Part shown: positions 3,709 to 43,084 of the stretch, in pieces
Position numbering within the stretch: the stretch's first letter is position 1
Layout of the letters: each line of letters opens with the position of its first letter
NCBI RefSeq assembly: GCF_000426665.1
Contig: NZ_KE384552.1
Span: 1-53,319, forward strand
Origin: Centipeda artemidis DSM 19719
Lineage (GTDB): Bacteria; Bacillota; Negativicutes; Selenomonadales; Selenomonadaceae
Length of the DNA: 53,319 bases
Direction of reading: 5' to 3'
Program-made: the position numbers and the translations under genes
The notes under the pieces: model-generated
What the model was told of the DNA's origin: nothing
The model's input: only the letters and a program-made list of their open reading frames with translations
The model's database searches: none

Positions 3709-4796
3709 TCGATCACCCCTCTTTTCAGTTGATCCGCCTCAAACCAGAGCAGGTTGAGGAAACGAACTTTGCAGGCATCGCCCGCCTGGAACATCAGATT
3801 TTTACTGAGTGCAATGTGTGTCTCAACGCTCGTCCGGAGATGCGTGCCGTCGATCTCAATGAGATAGTCCATCATCGCACCGAGGAAGTTCGCACGCTTA
3901 ATCGTTCCGGTCAGCCCCTCACCCTCGCGTGCGAGCACGACATCCGACGGCCGGAATCCGCCCGCCCAGCGCTCCGCATCCCCCTCCGGGGTCTCCCAAT
4001 GGATGGGCTGGCTGCCGCTGCCGACGAGGAGCGCACCGTTCTCGCGGCGCACGTCGATGAAATTCGCAATCCCCATGAAGTTGAATACGAACGGGTTCAC
4101 CGGCTGCTCAAAGATTTCCCACGGCGTGCCGATCTGCTGTATCGCCCCGGCCTCGTCCATGATTGCCACACGGTCCGAGATCGCAAGGCCGATCTCCTGA
4201 TCGTGCGTAACATAGAGCACCGTGACATTCAGCTTGCGCTGCAGCTCCTTGATCTCAAAGCGCATCTCCTCACGCAGATTCGCATCCAGATTCGAAAGCG
4301 GCTCATCCAGAAGGAGGAGGGCAGGCTTGCCAACCAGTGCACGGGCCAGCGCAACACGCTGCTGCTGTCCGCCGGACAGCTCCGACGGCAGACGCTTCTC
4401 AAGGTCCTTCATGCCGACGATCTCGACCATCTCCATAACCCGCTCGCGAATCTCCTCTTTCGGGCGCTTTGCGATCTTCAGAGGATATCCAACATTGTCA
4501 AATACCGTCATGTGCGGCCATACGGCATAGTCCTGGAACACAAGCCCGATGCCGCGGTTCTCCGGCGGCACCTCGACCTGCGCAGCAGGATCAGTGACAA
4601 GTGTATCGTCGAGATAAATTCTGCCCGCATCCGGCGACTCAAATCCCGCGATCAGACGAAGGAGAACGGTCTTGCCGCAACCGGACGGACCGAGCAGCGT
4701 AAAGCACTCCCCTTTCTTGATCGTCAGTGACAGATTGTTCAATATACTGCGGCTTCCATAGCTCTTGCTGACATCCTCCACACGGATAATATCCAT
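3705..4796 (-). CDS. ABC transporter ATP-binding protein, iron(III) type (first ATPase)
   Basis: 363-aa ATPase beginning MDIIRVEDVSKSYGS. An upstream in-frame extension to 4877 is open but has no ribosome site, while the chosen ATG at 4794-4796 has GGGGGAGG eight bases away. It has Walker A GPSGCGKT, signature LSGGQQQRVALARA, Walker B LLLLDEP, switch VTHDQ and a C-terminal TOBE-like part. It is the second gene of the operon after the binding lipoprotein and overlaps the permease start by 4 nt. The canonical signature suggests this is the main motor subunit; the ATPase at the operon end has an altered signature. Confidence 0.9.
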   Translation of the reverse strand: MDIIRVEDVSKSYGSRSILNNLSLTIKKGECFTLLGPSGCGKTVLLRLIAGFESPDAGRIYLDDTLVTDPAAQVEVPPENRGIGLVFQDYAVWPHMTVFDNVGYPLKIAKRPKEEIRERVMEMVEIVGMKDLEKRLPSELSGGQQQRVALARALVGKPALLLLDEPLSNLDANLREEMRFEIKELQRKLNVTVLYVTHDQEIGLAISDRVAIMDEAGAIQQIGTPWEIFEQPVNPFVFNFMGIANFIDVRRENGALLVGSGSQPIHWETPEGDAERWAGGFRPSDVVLAREGEGLTGTIKRANFLGAMMDYLIEIDGTHLRTSVETHIALSKNLMFQAGDACKVRFLNLLWFEADQLKRGVIE

Positions 4797-37007: not shown

Positions 37008-37922
37008 TCACCCCCTTTGCTGTCGGTCGTAATAGATGAAGACATCCTCCATCGAGAGTGCTGCGGGCTGTGCCTGCACCTCCGACGGCACTTCCGCGCC
37101 CCTTGGGATGAGCGCACGCACCTGGCGTCCGAACACATAAACCTCGTCATACTGCGCATGTGCCGCACGCAGCGCGGCCTCCGCCTCTCCCGTGCTCTCA
37201 TAGGGCAAAACGAACAGGCGCGCCGGCAATTCATCCTTGAGCTCGGCGGGCGAACCCGCGGCAATCTTGCGCCCCGCCTGTAAAAAGGCGATCTCATCGC
37301 AGTGTTCCGCCTCGTCCATGAAATGTGTCGTGACAAAGACAGTCGTGCCCTCGCCGCCCGCCATCTCCGAGAGCAGGTTCCAAAAGAGCCGCCGCGACGT
37401 AGGATCGACGGCAGACGTCGGTTCGTCAAGGACGAGCAGTGCCGGACGGTGCAGGATCGCACAGCCGAGTGCGAGACGCTGCTTCTGCCCGCCCGAGAGC
37501 CCGCCTGCGAGGATGTCCCGCTTTTCAACCAGCTGCATCTGCGCGAGCACGTCCGCGCAGCGGCATCGGCGCTCCTCTTTCGCAAGGCCGTAGAGCCCGC
37601 CGTAGAACATCATATTCTCCCACACCGTAAGGTTCTCATAGAGACTGAAGCGCTGCGACATATAGCCGATCGACTGTTTCACCCGTTCAGGGTGTACGGC
37701 TGTATCGCAGCCGAGGACGAGCGCTGTGCCGTGCGTCGGGGAGAGCAGCCCGCAGATCATGCGGATCGCGGTGGATTTTCCCGAGCCGTTCGACCCAATG
37801 AAACCAAAGATCGAGGCGCGCCGCACGGTAAGGTTCAGCCGATCGACGGCCGTATAGCTGCCGAATACGCGAGTGAGGTCGTGCGTCTCGATGACGGCGC
37901 CTTCGGATATTTTATCTTGCAT
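37008..37922 (-). CDS. ABC exporter ATP-binding protein (YbhF/YhiH-like)
   Basis: 304 aa. Walker A GSNGSGKST, signature LSGGQKQRLALGCAIL, Walker B LLVLDEPTSAVD, switch VTTHFMDEAEH, and a C-terminal extension ending MEDVFIYYDRQQRG as in CcmA/YbhF-type ATPases. Start overlaps the HlyD gene end by 11 nt. Drives the ABC-2 permease next to it. Substrate unknown; similar systems export hydrophobic drugs or cell-surface compounds. Confidence 0.92.
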   Translation of the reverse strand: MQDKISEGAVIETHDLTRVFGSYTAVDRLNLTVRRASIFGFIGSNGSGKSTAIRMICGLLSPTHGTALVLGCDTAVHPERVKQSIGYMSQRFSLYENLTVWENMMFYGGLYGLAKEERRCRCADVLAQMQLVEKRDILAGGLSGGQKQRLALGCAILHRPALLVLDEPTSAVDPTSRRLFWNLLSEMAGGEGTTVFVTTHFMDEAEHCDEIAFLQAGRKIAAGSPAELKDELPARLFVLPYESTGEAEAALRAAHAQYDEVYVFGRQVRALIPRGAEVPSEVQAQPAALSMEDVFIYYDRQQRG

Positions 37923-38904
37923 GATGCCAGTCCAAATCTACATCAGCCGGCATGCCCGGCTTCAGCGCGCCGTCCTCGTTGTGCACCGCGACCTTAACCG
38001 CAAAGACAAGATTGGCACGCTCGTCCTTCGTGATGCTCTGACGCAGTGTGTACTCGGCCGCATCGCTGATCTCCTTGATCGTCCCGTTGAGCGGTTCCGC
38101 ACGGCCATCGATGTAGACAAGCGCCGCATCCCCGATGCGCAGATCGCCGAGGACGTCGGTCGTCACATAAACCTTCACCCAAACGTCCTGCGGGTCGATG
38201 ATGGTCGCGAGCGCCGCGCCCGCACGGACGTACTCACCCGGCTCATAGTTCTTCGTAAGGACGACACCGTCCGCGGGTACGCTGACCGTGAGGTCGCCGA
38301 CCGCAGCGTCGTCGATCGCGAGGATCGCCTGCTGTCGCTTCACATCCTCGGCGGCCATGCGGATATCCTCGGGGCGGCTGCCATTTTTGAGAAGCGCTTC
38401 CTGCTGCTCGGCAGCGCGCAGATTTGCCTCGGATGCCTCCCGTTCCTCACGCAGGGCATCGAATGCCTGCGGTGCGATCGCTCCCTCCGCGAGGAGCTGT
38501 GCCCCACGTTCATAGTCTGCCGCCGCCTTATCCGCTGCCGCGCGTGCCGCCCGCGTGCGTGCCGCCGCCGCAGAGATATCCTCCGCCCGGCTGCCGTGCA
38601 CCGCACGGTCGAGATGTGCCTGTGCGTATGCCAGTGCCGCCTCATCCCGCAGCCGTGCTGCCATAAGATCATTGCGCCGGATGCGTGCAGCAATATCCCC
38701 TTGATGTACCTCCATCCCCTCCGTGAGCAGCAGCTCCTCAATGGTTCCGCTCTCCTTCGCACTGATGTCGATGCGCGTTGCTTCAACTGTGCCCGTGAGG
38801 AGATTCGTCCGTGCTGTCTGCGCACTGTAAGAGCGGTAGGCGATCACAGACAGTATGATGACCGCGATAAGAATGAGCGCAATACGTATGTGTTTTAGTT
38901 TCAT
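37912..38904 (-). CDS. HlyD/EmrA-family periplasmic adaptor
   Basis: 330 aa from the ATG at 38902-38904; an ATG three codons earlier sits directly on the AAAGGA ribosome site and is less likely. One N-terminal membrane anchor (IALILIAVIILSVIAY), then GTVEATRIDISAKESGTIEE lipoyl half, a long Ala-rich coiled-coil hairpin (about 85-200), the second lipoyl half VPADGVVLTKNYEPGEYVRA and a beta-barrel. YbhG/YhiI-like. Bridges the inner-membrane exporter towards the outer membrane; no TolC gene here. First gene of the exporter operon, promoter likely at 38976-39002. Confidence 0.9.
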   Translation of the reverse strand: MKLKHIRIALILIAVIILSVIAYRSYSAQTARTNLLTGTVEATRIDISAKESGTIEELLLTEGMEVHQGDIAARIRRNDLMAARLRDEAALAYAQAHLDRAVHGSRAEDISAAAARTRAARAAADKAAADYERGAQLLAEGAIAPQAFDALREEREASEANLRAAEQQEALLKNGSRPEDIRMAAEDVKRQQAILAIDDAAVGDLTVSVPADGVVLTKNYEPGEYVRAGAALATIIDPQDVWVKVYVTTDVLGDLRIGDAALVYIDGRAEPLNGTIKEISDAAEYTLRQSITKDERANLVFAVKVAVHNEDGALKPGMPADVDLDWHHAR

Positions 38905-38975
38905 CCGGTTCATCCTTTCTAGGGCGATAAATATACTCTCTTGTTGGTATAATAATTACTGAATTAATAGAAAAT

Positions 38976-39002
38976 ATTATAGCATACGATTTTAAGGGGC
39001 AA
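38976..39002 (-). promoter_or_regulatory. Putative promoter of the exporter operon
   Basis: -10 TATAAT (minus, 38976-38981) and a weak TTGCCC at 38997-39002 with only 15 bp between. A small palindrome CTAATTTTCGATTAG lies just upstream (39006-39020) and could be an operator. Confidence 0.4.
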
Positions 39003-39148
39003 TCACTAATTTTCGATTAGATATGCGGATCAACATATTACATATACGCCTATGCACGCTAAACCACGCTTCACGATTGACAGCACGAGGTGCGCGTCAT
39101 ATAATGGATACAGAAGCTTTCACAACACTCCCGAAAGGAGCGTGCACC

Positions 39149-40243
39149 ATGAAGAAGATGCTCACTCTGCTCGTGTTGGCGGTTTTCCTGCTCAGCGCTG
39201 CGGGCTGCGGCTCTGCACAGGAAGCCGATGTGCCGGCACAACATGCGACGGCAAATGCCCAGTCGGCTCCCCCTGCGCTAAAAACGAAAGTACTCTTCAT
39301 CAACACAAGCCGTGACCCAAACGGCAATACGTACAAGATGGGAGAAGCGTTCCTCGCCGGCGTTCCGCACGACACGCTCTTTCTGAACGACTACAAAATC
39401 TACCAGCTCGGCCAGCACTATGACGACGACCGGCTCACCGACGTTCTTGCGGCGACAGAGCAGGCGGATACCATCGTCATCGGCACGCCCGTCTACTGGC
39501 ACACGATGAGCGGCGCGCTCAAGACCTTCATCGACCGCACCGTCCTCTTCCTTCATGGCGGCGGCTATATTGGGGGGCTGCACGGTCGGTATCTCGACTG
39601 GGGGCTGCATCAAGGCGACCTCGCGGACGCCGGCACGCTCTTTGCCGTGGATTATCGTCTCGCACCCGAGCACACCTATCCTGCGGCGCTTGAGGACGCC
39701 GTGACCGCCTATCGCGCGATTCTAAAAGAGGGAACCGATCCCCGGCAGATCGTACTCGTCGGCGACTCCGCCGGCGGGAACCTCGCCGCAGCGCTGCTCC
39801 TCTCTCTGCGCGACAACAAGATGCCGCTGCCAAAGGCGGCCATCCTCATATCGCCATGGGGCTATCTCGGCAGTGACCTGCCGTCGCATGTGAACAACAT
39901 CCCGAAGGATCAGGTGCTCGGCGCAAAGAACGTCCGCCTCGGCGGCGAGGTCGCCCATCCGTCCTATCGTAAGGATGCGCCCGTCACCGATCCGTACATC
40001 TCCCCCGTCTACGCCGACCTCACGGGGCTGCCGCCCATGCTGATCACTGCAGGCGGCGACGAACTCTTCCTCGACGACGCAGCGCTCCTCGCGGCACACG
40101 CGACGGCTGCGGGCGTCCCCGTGCAGTTTACCATCTACCCGCGCATGTCGCACGACTGGACGCTCCTCCTGCCGGAGCTGCCCGAATCCGCCGCGATGGA
40201 CGCGGAAATCCGGCAGTTTGTCGATGCGCAGCTGAAAAGGTGA
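39149..40243 (+). CDS. Chimeric lipoprotein: flavodoxin-like domain fused to alpha/beta-hydrolase (esterase)
   Basis: 364 aa from ATG 39149-39151 (AAAGGAG upstream). Lipobox LLSAAGC with Cys20. Residues 46-131 are the first part of an NADPH-dependent FMN reductase/flavodoxin fold: VLFINTSRDPNGNTYKMGEA and IGTPVYWHTMSGALKTFIDR. At residue 132 it switches to an HSL-type esterase: FLHGGGYIGG oxyanion motif, VDYRLAPEHTYPAALED, GDSAGG (Ser207), GGDELFLDDA and a catalytic His in SHDW. The flavodoxin lacks its last strands and the hydrolase its first ones and cap. A deletion joining two neighbouring genes in frame is the simplest reading. Activity of either half is doubtful. Confidence 0.8.
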   Translation: MKKMLTLLVLAVFLLSAAGCGSAQEADVPAQHATANAQSAPPALKTKVLFINTSRDPNGNTYKMGEAFLAGVPHDTLFLNDYKIYQLGQHYDDDRLTDVLAATEQADTIVIGTPVYWHTMSGALKTFIDRTVLFLHGGGYIGGLHGRYLDWGLHQGDLADAGTLFAVDYRLAPEHTYPAALEDAVTAYRAILKEGTDPRQIVLVGDSAGGNLAAALLLSLRDNKMPLPKAAILISPWGYLGSDLPSHVNNIPKDQVLGAKNVRLGGEVAHPSYRKDAPVTDPYISPVYADLTGLPPMLITAGGDELFLDDAALLAAHATAAGVPVQFTIYPRMSHDWTLLLPELPESAAMDAEIRQFVDAQLKR

Positions 40244-40295
40244 ATTGCGCAGGTAATCATAAACATGCTATACTCATTATAAAGGAGATGAGTAT

Positions 40296-40562
40296 ATGCC
40301 CGAATTAAGCCGATTTTTTGGCATCGTTGTAAAGATGATTTTCAAAGATAACAATCAGCACCATAAACCGCATGTGCACGTTTACTTTAATGAATATGAG
40401 GCATCCATCGGAATTGATGGCGAACTCCTTGCCGGCAGCATCCCTGTCAAACAGTTGCGGCTCATTGAGGCGTGGCTCGCCATTCATGAGGATGAATTAT
40501 ATGCCGCATGGAACAATGCGGTACGTGGTCTGGCATTCGACAAAATCGATCCGCTCAGATAA
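40296..40562 (+). CDS. DUF4160-family protein
   Basis: 88 aa. MPELSRFFGIVVKMIFKDN followed by HHKPHVHVYFNEYEASIGID matches the DUF4160 pattern (HxPHxHV...). Ribosome site AAAGGAG eight bases before ATG 40296. Followed 14 bp later by a DUF2442 gene. The pair is widely found together and has been proposed as a toxin-antitoxin-like module; activity is not shown here. Confidence 0.85.
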   Translation: MPELSRFFGIVVKMIFKDNNQHHKPHVHVYFNEYEASIGIDGELLAGSIPVKQLRLIEAWLAIHEDELYAAWNNAVRGLAFDKIDPLR

Positions 40563-40576
40563 GGGAGACAAGAGAT

Positions 40577-40876
40577 ATGTATATCGTCAACGGTATTGCC
40601 TATGCGGGAGAACAGAAGCCTGTGCTGCGCGTCAGCGGCGTGCGTCCGCTGGATGATTTCCGCCTGTGGGTGCGGTTCAGTACTGGCGAGGCGAAGATTT
40701 TCGACTGCAAGCCGCTGTTTGATCTGCCGATCTTCGCCCCGCTGCGCACACCGGAGACATTTCGCGCTGTCTATATTGACTATGGCGTCCCGACATGGAA
40801 CGACGGCACAATCGACCTCTCGCCCGAGACGCTGTATGACGAGGGCGCCCCGGTGCAGGAAGCGAATCCTGCATAA
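40577..40876 (+). CDS. DUF2442-family protein
   Basis: 99 aa from ATG 40577-40579 (AAGGGAG upstream). VRPLDDFRLWVRFSTGEAKI, FDCKPLFDLPIFAPLRTPE and VPTWNDGTIDLSPETLYDEG are the DUF2442 pattern. Partner of the DUF4160 gene upstream and followed by a terminator. Likely cytoplasmic; no DNA-binding motif visible in this short form. Confidence 0.85.
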   Translation: MYIVNGIAYAGEQKPVLRVSGVRPLDDFRLWVRFSTGEAKIFDCKPLFDLPIFAPLRTPETFRAVYIDYGVPTWNDGTIDLSPETLYDEGAPVQEANPA

Positions 40877-40901
40877 TCTCCGCACGCGAATTGCATAAGA
40901 A

Positions 40902-40939
40902 AATCCCCTAGGAGCGGCGCCCACGCTCGCTAGGGGATT
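40902..40939 (+). terminator. Terminator of the DUF4160/DUF2442 operon
   Basis: AATCCCCTAGgAGCG and CGCTcgCTAGGGGATT pair, 25 bp past the stop. Confidence 0.7.
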
Positions 40940-41084
40940 CGTCGTTTCGTGACAGGATGTCAGTCGCCCTTGCCCTACGCATAGTATAGCATTTCCGAGA
41001 CGAAAGTCACGTCCGCCCCCACTCATGAACCGAATGTCGCTATGCGCCAAAATCCCGCGTCTTCCCCTCCCACCGCAACCTAAG

Positions 41085-41206
41085 TGACAGTCAAGTTTGG
41101 ATGCACGGCTAGGAATGAGGAGAATGCGAGCGACGGCGTAGTCAAAAGCTACTCCTAGCGAAGCATTCGACGATATGACACCGCCGTGCACCAAGATCAG
41201 CTGTCA
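41085..41206. repeat. Nested inverted repeat, cruciform-like
   Basis: Successive arms pair around one centre: TGACAG/CTGTCA (41085-41090, 41201-41206), GGATGCACGGC/GCCGTGCACC (41099-41109, 41183-41192), GAATGC/GCATTC (41122-41127, 41163-41168), GTAG/CTAC (41138-41141, 41149-41152). The outermost arm includes the mnmG stop codon. Apart from this and the terminator at 40902 I see nothing in the 40877-41203 gap. Confidence 0.5.
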
Positions 41207-43084
41207 CGCCTCCCTTCGAGCTTTCTCGAGATAAACCAGCAGCACCGAAACATCCGCCGGCGACACACCGCTGATGCGGGACGCCTGCCCGATGGAGTGC
41301 GGACGAACGGCGGCGAGTTTTTCCTGCGCCTCAAGACGCAGGCTCGTAATAGCGGCGTAGTCGATCTCTTCCGGGATACGGCGCCGTTCGAGCCGCTCCA
41401 TGCGCGCGATCTGCTCCCGCTGTTTGCGGATATAGCCGTCGTAGCGCACGGTGATCTCGACTTCTTCCTTTACATCGTCCGCGAGTATTGGGAGGTCAAA
41501 GATGCGTGCGAGCACATCGTAGCTGCCCTCGCGGCGCAGGAGCGCGGCGAGATTCATCGGCGTGCGCAGAGGGAGAAGTCCCGCATCCGCAAGCCGCCCT
41601 TCCGTCGCCGCGTCAGGCGTGAGTTTCGTCGTCTCAAGGAGATGCAGTGCCGCCTCGATGGCGTCGCGTTTCGCGGTAAACTTCGCCCAGCGCGCATCGC
41701 TCACGAGCCCGATCTCGTGCCCGACGGGCGTCAGACGCAGATCGGCATTGTCCTGCCGCAGGATCAGCCGATACTCGGCGCGGCTCGTCATCATGCGGTA
41801 GGGCTCCTCCGTTCCCTTCGTCACGAGATCGTCGATGAGAACCCCGATGTAGCCGTCGCTGCGCCCGAGGATGAGAGGTTCCTCGCCTGCAATCTCCCTC
41901 GCGGCGTTGATGCCCGCGATCAGCCCCTGCGCCGCCGCCTCCTCGTAGCCGCTCGTACCGTTCGCCTGTCCGCAGCTATAGAGCCCCGCAACGCCTTTGA
42001 CGGCAAGTGACGGTTCGAGTCCAAGAGGGTCAAAACAATCGTACTCGATGGCGTAACCGGGGCGCATGATGCGTGCGCGCTCCAGCCCCGCAATCGTCCT
42101 GAGAAATTCCTCCTGCACGTCGGTCGGCAGACTTGTAGACATCCCCTGCACATACAGCTCATTGGTATGCAGCCCCTCGGGTTCGAGGAAGAGCTGATGC
42201 CGCTCCTTGTCGGGAAAGCGCGCGATCTTCGTCTCAACGGAGGGACAGTAGCGCGGCCCGATGCCCTCGATGACGCCGTTTGCCATCGGCGCGCGGTGGA
42301 GATTCACGCGGATGACCTCGTGCGTCGCGGCATTGGTATAGGTGAGGTAGCAGCGCACCTGCTCTTTTGGCATCTCCTCGGTCATAAAGGAAAAGGGCGG
42401 CGCGCTCTCCTCCCCCTCCTGCACCTGCGTCCGAGCAAAGTCGACCGTACGTGCATCCACACGTGCGGGCGTACCGGTCTTGAACCGCATGATTTTGAGC
42501 CCCAACGCCCGCAGGGAATCCGAGAGCTGCATCGCGGGGCGCTGTCCGTTTGGACCGCCGTCGTAGATGGTTTCGCCGAGGATAATGCGTCCGCGCAGAT
42601 ATGTCCCCGTCGCAAGGATGACGGCGCGCGCGGTGATCCGCTCCCCCGTCTCACAGCGGATGCCCGTGACGCGTCTGCCGTCCTCCGTCTCCTCGCTCAG
42701 CAATTCCGTTACAAGAAGCTGACGCACATCGAGGTTCGGCGTATTTTCGAGCGTTTCTTTCATGATGCGCTGATAGAGAAATTTATCCGCCTGCATCCGG
42801 AGCGCGTGGACGGCGGGCCCTTTACCCGTGTTGAGCAGACGCCGCTGGATGGACGCCCTGTCCGCCGCGATGCCCATCTCGCCGCCGAGCGCATCGATCT
42901 CGCGCACGAGGTGGCTCTTGCCGGGTCCGCCGACGGACGGGTTGCAGGGCATCATCGCGATGTTGTCGAGCGAAAGCGTCACGCAGAGCGTACGCCGCCC
43001 GAGCCGCGCCGCTGCGAGCGCCGCCTCGACACCCGCGTGCCCCGCACCGACGACGATGATGTCGTAATCTGTCGTGCTGTTCAT
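41204..43084 (-). CDS. mnmG: tRNA uridine-5-carboxymethylaminomethyl modification enzyme MnmG
   Basis: With MnmE, adds the (carboxy)methylaminomethyl group to C5 of wobble uridine 34 of several tRNAs, using FAD, methylenetetrahydrofolate and glycine/ammonium. 626 aa, normal. FAD motif [40 protein letters not shown] with the catalytic Cys region, [10 protein letters not shown] and the C-terminal [19 protein letters not shown] MnmE-binding helices. Start at ATG 43082-43084 with GGAAGG upstream. In the common order mnmE-mnmG, but a toxin-antitoxin locus separates them here. Confidence 0.97.

Follow-up and report, generated by a model that had tools for sequence, protein, structure and literature searches.

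The window analyzed here is a stretch of 53,319 nucleotides from Centipeda artemidis DSM 19719 (contig NZ_KE384552.1). At 39149-40243 it contains a single open frame of 364 amino acids, running from an ATG at 39149 to a TGA that ends at 40243, in which the front of a flavodoxin lipoprotein continues directly into the back of an HSL-type esterase. A first-pass annotation of the sequence left two readings of this frame, namely a fresh deletion fusion or a new enzyme that a newly acquired signal anchors outside the cell. Our comparisons favor, with a probability of about 0.7, a deletion between neighboring genes that made the frame and left a young chimera on its way to loss, with an impaired or inactive product. 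The fusion looks like a fairly young accident of one lineage and not an established new enzyme. It is ordinary in kind, and the literature search found nothing on such a flavodoxin-esterase fusion.

Domain organization of the fused frame

The closest relative with the locus is Selenomonas sp. F0473 (NZ_JH992902.1; flavodoxin at 4001-4597 of the locus L053). The parts of the frame and its downstream neighbors are listed below.

39149..40243, forward strand: fused frame, 364 amino acids plus stop, carried at E <= 1e-20 by one of the 380 class genomes
39149..39208, forward strand: predicted signal peptide with a lipobox-type end (LLSAAGC, Cys20), by pattern match
39281..39538, forward strand: residues 45-130, the beginning of a flavodoxin/FMN_red domain whose last third is gone; Pfam FMN_red 1-97 of 152
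39533..39541, forward strand: join region around GACCGC (Asp-Arg), 39538 being the last position of identity with the F0473 flavodoxin
39539..40240, forward strand: residues 131-364, an HSL-type esterase that starts at the HGGG strand and runs to the C-terminus; Pfam Abhydrolase_3 1-209 of 210
40106..40243, forward strand: esterase-end stretch that also survives in F0473 behind the flavodoxin stop codons, by DNA comparison
40296..40562, forward strand: DUF4160 gene directly 3' of the fusion and in the same place in F0473, by Pfam and comparison with F0473
40577..40876, forward strand: DUF2442 gene, position identical in F0473; the Pfam query started two codons earlier, at 40571

Pfam assigns residues 46-132 of the fusion to FMN_red, covering profile positions 1-97 of 152 and therefore a truncated domain, and residues 132-338 to Abhydrolase_3, covering positions 1-209 of 210. 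A complete Rossmann-like domain (PF03358) is thus not present, and the profile is followed to position 119 in the intact F0473 flavodoxin and to 128 in the intact protein L098 of Colibacter massiliensis. The esterase half carries the HSL/family IV (PF07859) motifs HGGG, GDSAG, and a late His (MSHDW). Ser207 and His335 are its catalytic residues by position, and Asp304 is, from the family motif, presumably the catalytic acid. The N-terminal cap and complete sheet of HSL enzymes are missing, as the esterase part begins at the strand before HGGG. The fusion scores 192.6 bits against the NCBIfam model NF058651 (GESAG_HSLs; cut-off 430), a miss that is uninformative on truncation, and Rfam gave no match in 37500-42000. 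The open frame, the Pfam assignments, and the catalytic motifs confirm the first-pass description of an in-frame chimera of a flavodoxin lipoprotein and an HSL-type esterase. The profile coverage, set beside the complete F0473 protein of 198 amino acids, likewise bears out its statement that the first domain lacks its last strands.

The corresponding locus of Selenomonas sp. F0473

When 100 related genomes were searched, the whole fusion protein was listed solely in the window's own genome, and one genome of the same genus, F0473, matched residues 1-132 at 77% and then residues 305-364 at 73%, across two stop codons. The two loci are colinear over nearly 8 kb, in four blocks of 84.8-90.5% DNA identity. 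In F0473 the flavodoxin gene is complete (198 amino acids, stop at 4595-4597 of L053), and its protein is 78% identical to fusion residues 1-130. Directly after its two stop codons, and in frame with it, lies an esterase end of ~47 residues, which ends in the same last residues as the window, QFVDAQLKR. Between these shared parts, window positions 39539-40105 (567 bases, the bulk of the esterase half) stand against 216 bases in F0473, most of which belong to the remainder of the flavodoxin gene.

The match to the F0473 flavodoxin DNA stops after R130 (ATCGACCGC, window 39538). A switch at residues 131/132 had been proposed; the change of family is upheld by Pfam, but the exact point is not, because residues 129-130 (Asp-Arg) fit both families and blur the boundary. 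The pair DR occurs at the junction position in 3 of 18 intact esterases, including the two most similar ones: L002 reads TDRIVFFLHGGG with Asp-Arg coded GACCGA, L003 reads ADRILLFFHGGG with GATCGA, and L006 reads NDRVVLQFHGGG with GACCGT. Since Asp-Arg at this place is common to the nearest esterases, a direct repeat some 5-6 bases long may have guided the deletion, perhaps by slippage between GACCGC-like repeats encoding Asp-Arg in both genes, one copy having presumably stood in the lost esterase front. Among direct repeats of at least 14 bases in 37900-41900 none is placed at the junction; a repeat scan of the window is blind to the proposed repeat, as one copy is gone.

Comparing the esterase remnant of F0473 with the window gives 5 changes among 96 amino-acid-changing sites and 7 among 30 silent ones (Fisher p = 0.0075; small counts). 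These mostly silent differences suggest that selection acted on the esterase end, in one lineage or both, during some of the period after they separated. At the protein level 5 of 42 residues differ (323, 332, 336, 337, and 339). Three or more of the four nearest relatives share the window's residue at 323, 336, and 337, where the F0473 residue is absent from all 37 esterases compared. At 339 three of the four read as the window does and the fourth as F0473 does, and at 332 both are unlike the esterase family.

Occurrence of the fusion and of its parts

The fusion is present in 1 of 14 genomes of the genus and, at E <= 1e-20, in 1 of 380 genomes of the class (its own included), with none among the 379 others. 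In this class-wide search the best five candidates per genome were scored, and 234 of the 380 genomes had completeness of 90% or more and contamination of 5% or less. Flavodoxin matches extend at most 40 residues past residue 131 (G022, 43-171, in a frame of 161 amino acids), and esterase matches start at residue 104 or later. An established fusion family, which the first-pass annotation had named as the finding that would count against a fresh event, is therefore rejected, as only the window's protein matches both halves at E <= 1e-20. The whole fusion protein against the genome contigs gave 131 pattern stretches and no relative.

The flavodoxin part has few close relatives. The F0473 flavodoxin matches 11 of 189 genomes of the family at E <= 1e-10; the close form is in the window's genome (78%) and F0473, and the other matches are at 36-46%. 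A contig search with the flavodoxin alignment returned two loci, those of F0473 and Colibacter massiliensis (L054; protein L098). The Colibacter flavodoxin lipoprotein is intact and standalone, with 204 amino acids from the first Met and 66% identity to the F0473 query in the best segment, and no esterase match was found in the 10 kb read at its locus. Both proteins share with the fusion the same kind of signal and the first 130 residues. They are complete, however, whereas the fusion has an esterase in place of the last third. Some other flavodoxins of the family (L044, L046, L047, and L052) lie beside a different alpha/beta-hydrolase-like frame with a GGSAGAR motif, named by eye, and some of these also have an aldo/keto-reductase-like frame, again by eye from the list of open reading frames.

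Two intact adjacent genes, which had been suggested as a check in close relatives, were not found in the loci read. A close flavodoxin beside a close esterase occurs in none of 20 fetched stretches, and L092, L093, and L101 have weak flavodoxin-like matches (25-38% identity) ~2.5-3.5 kb from a close esterase.

Relocation of the missing parts was also considered and was not seen in the window's genome. As controls, the 68-residue end of the F0473 flavodoxin recovers the gene it comes from (E 3.2e-42) and another F0473 flavodoxin (1.5e-8); it has no match in the window's genome. The first 103 residues of L002 recover its own genome (G020) together with G051, G239, and G013 (E 8.3e-18 to 8.3e-5), and again have no match in the window's genome. 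Being absent from the assembly, these parts were lost rather than relocated, except if a gap between contigs hides them.

Proposed deletion history

The claim of a fresh deletion fusion is well supported by F0473, in which an intact flavodoxin is followed by a 3' esterase remnant at the same place, with synteny at about 85-90% DNA identity on both sides. The two genes would have stood complete and in tandem in the common ancestor. A deletion in the window's lineage would then have joined the flavodoxin front in frame to the esterase back, at the cost of some 0.5 kb or more: the stop and the last 68 codons of the first gene, ~100 codons of the second, and anything between. F0473 would independently have lost most of the esterase gene, so that each lineage would have had a deletion of its own. 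The flavodoxin's signal would direct the product of the fusion to export and a lipid anchor. This product would most likely work poorly or not at all, since both halves lack parts of their folds: the flavodoxin its last third, the esterase its lid and first two strands.

Possible activity of the esterase half

Retention of function is unlikely. The fusion would then be a working esterase in which the flavodoxin strands or the linker prop up the truncated sheet, so that short esters are hydrolyzed by an enzyme tethered to the membrane by lipid. The esterase half is 61% identical to L002 and 58% to L003, and intact standalone esterases of 323-349 amino acids are found in all 18 loci read. Of the 47 columns without variation across the other 18 sequences, the esterase half retains 46, and the first-pass statement that the esterase triad and oxyanion motifs remain is sound. 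Moreover, the frame is open and without decay, and the tree tip of the esterase half (0.35) compares with 0.35 for L002 and 0.44 for L003. The residues at 323, 336, and 337, family-like in the window and departures in F0473, favor a working enzyme too, and 339 leans the same way. On the other hand, the same conservation is expected of a young deletion, and the fusion is known from a single lineage. In L004, L005, and L006, GGYE stands at the expected position of the catalytic Asp (GGDE in the window), so the catalytic acid of those relatives may be another residue.

A fold search gives 37-39% identity to entries for the solved relatives EstD11, Est8, and EstE5. These proteins, like L002 and L003, share HGGG, GDSAG, and the C-terminal His with the fusion; in contrast to all of them, the fusion lacks its own esterase signal, the cap helix, and the first two strands. 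The model of L003 (mean pLDDT 91.3; alignment of 32 of 36 rows, L012, L015, L093, and L100 left out) has helix 40-58 and the strands 74-81 and 84-91 ahead of strand 99-103 and HGGG. The esterase part of the fusion starts at strand 130-135, the counterpart of L003 strand 99-103. The cap helix and the two strands that precede the HGGG strand in the L003 model are thus missing from the fusion, in agreement with the first-pass view that the second domain is without its first strands and cap, and their loss weighs against activity. EstA1 of Alteromonas sp. 39-G1, also a family IV esterase shortened at the N-terminus, is reported to be active without 20 or 54 N-terminal residues (PMC9728341). Those cuts took away the signal, or 54 residues picked with the solved MGS-MT1 as the reference (PMC9728341). 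Unlike these forms of EstA1 (PMC9728341), the fusion, judging from the L003 model, would also lose two strands of the core sheet.

The fusion model (mean pLDDT 86.8; alignment of 48 of 50 rows, the flavodoxin rows L051 and L093 left out) has confident halves. Block means are 93-99 in the esterase half, with 82 for the last four residues, and about 60 in the blocks covering 111-130, up to the junction. The high values in the esterase half agree with a working enzyme, but they derive from the esterase rows of the alignment and carry nothing on activity, and the stretch of about 60 before the junction counts against it. Because the alignment held the halves separately, the fusion itself excepted, the model is no proof of a folded whole.

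Neighboring genes and putative insertion of the stretch

In the window, hlyD and mnmG are 2,290 bases apart (38914-41203). Among the nine other same-genus hlyD loci, four have mnmG ~200-290 bases off, with the flavodoxin-to-DUF2442 stretch absent, and in the remaining five mnmG lies beyond the fetched stretch. As hlyD and mnmG are nearly adjacent in these four loci, the flavodoxin-esterase-DUF4160-DUF2442 stretch is probably an insertion or acquired island in the window/F0473 lineage. Tree placement concerns the esterase half in particular: in the tree, drawn open, it groups (88/74) with L002, L003, L083, and L084, the last two being from two genomes of another family. Its own genus's esterases stand apart, pointing to horizontal transfer or an old paralogue.

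Silent divergence (dS) between the window and F0473 is 0.59 for hlyD, 0.44 for the ABC ATPase, 0.60 for the flavodoxin front, 0.46 for mnmG, and 0.52 for DUF2442, against 0.28 for the esterase remnant and 0.14 for DUF4160. The low values of the remnant and DUF4160 make recombination or exchange between the two lineages possible. The DUF4160 gene itself (40296-40562) has far fewer silent changes than its neighbors, by local recombination or constraint at the DNA level.

It is thus conceivable, if quite improbable, that there was never an intact tandem pair, and that a block of partial esterase, DUF4160, and DUF2442 was inserted or exchanged with different left ends. The absence of the stretch from the four same-genus loci speaks for such a block, as does the lower dS of the remnant and DUF4160 relative to hlyD, flavodoxin, and mnmG. 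Against it, the changes in the esterase end are mostly silent, which is unexpected if both lineages have had only a dead fragment from the split onward; this argument uses small numbers, and much of the pattern could come from selection confined to the window's lineage.

Export and lipid anchor

The fusion has a signal followed by a lipobox pattern ending at Cys20, as in a bacterial lipoprotein (predicted; the pattern is, as we take it, that of PROSITE). Among the flavodoxins, the F0473 protein and L096 fit the pattern and the Colibacter protein L098 does not; among the 18 intact esterases none fits. All 18 esterases nevertheless have a hydrophobic N-terminal stretch in a hydropathy scan (peak over 12 residues 1.78-2.75; no set threshold, first ATG taken as start, not a signal predictor). 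Export of the esterase half is therefore probably not new, and the change would be from exported to lipid-anchored. A gain of export as the novelty is set aside on the same 18 of 18. Of the claim that the esterase gained a signal it did not have before, the lipid anchor would be new and the gain of export is weak. The case for a new enzyme anchored outside the cell is correspondingly weak, with the predicted lipid anchor as its one new feature. A newborn enzyme, close to its originating deletion, in which half a flavodoxin completes the truncated esterase sheet and a free enzyme has become lipid-tethered, is very doubtful.

Assembly of the junction region

An assembly error that wrongly joined two genes would suit a draft of 35 contigs and a fusion seen in one genome only, but it is hardly credible, since the junction lies ~39 kb inside a contig of 145,788 bases, the region has no second long copy, the missing gene parts are absent though the same queries match control genomes, and F0473 shows a deletion affecting these two genes as well. 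A 200-base segment around the junction occurs once at full length in the assembly; its 41 other matches are all short, the best of 27 bases at 89% (E 0.005). The position deep in the contig and the lack of a second long copy thus make an error at the junction, the other objection raised by the first-pass annotation, unlikely.

Implications

The fusion would be a clean example of a chimeric gene made by deletion, and the event can be reconstructed because F0473, a sister species, keeps one gene whole and the tail of the other. An active product would offer a natural test of the minimal HSL fold needed for catalysis; otherwise the fusion is mainly an issue of annotation, as either half could give the protein its name.
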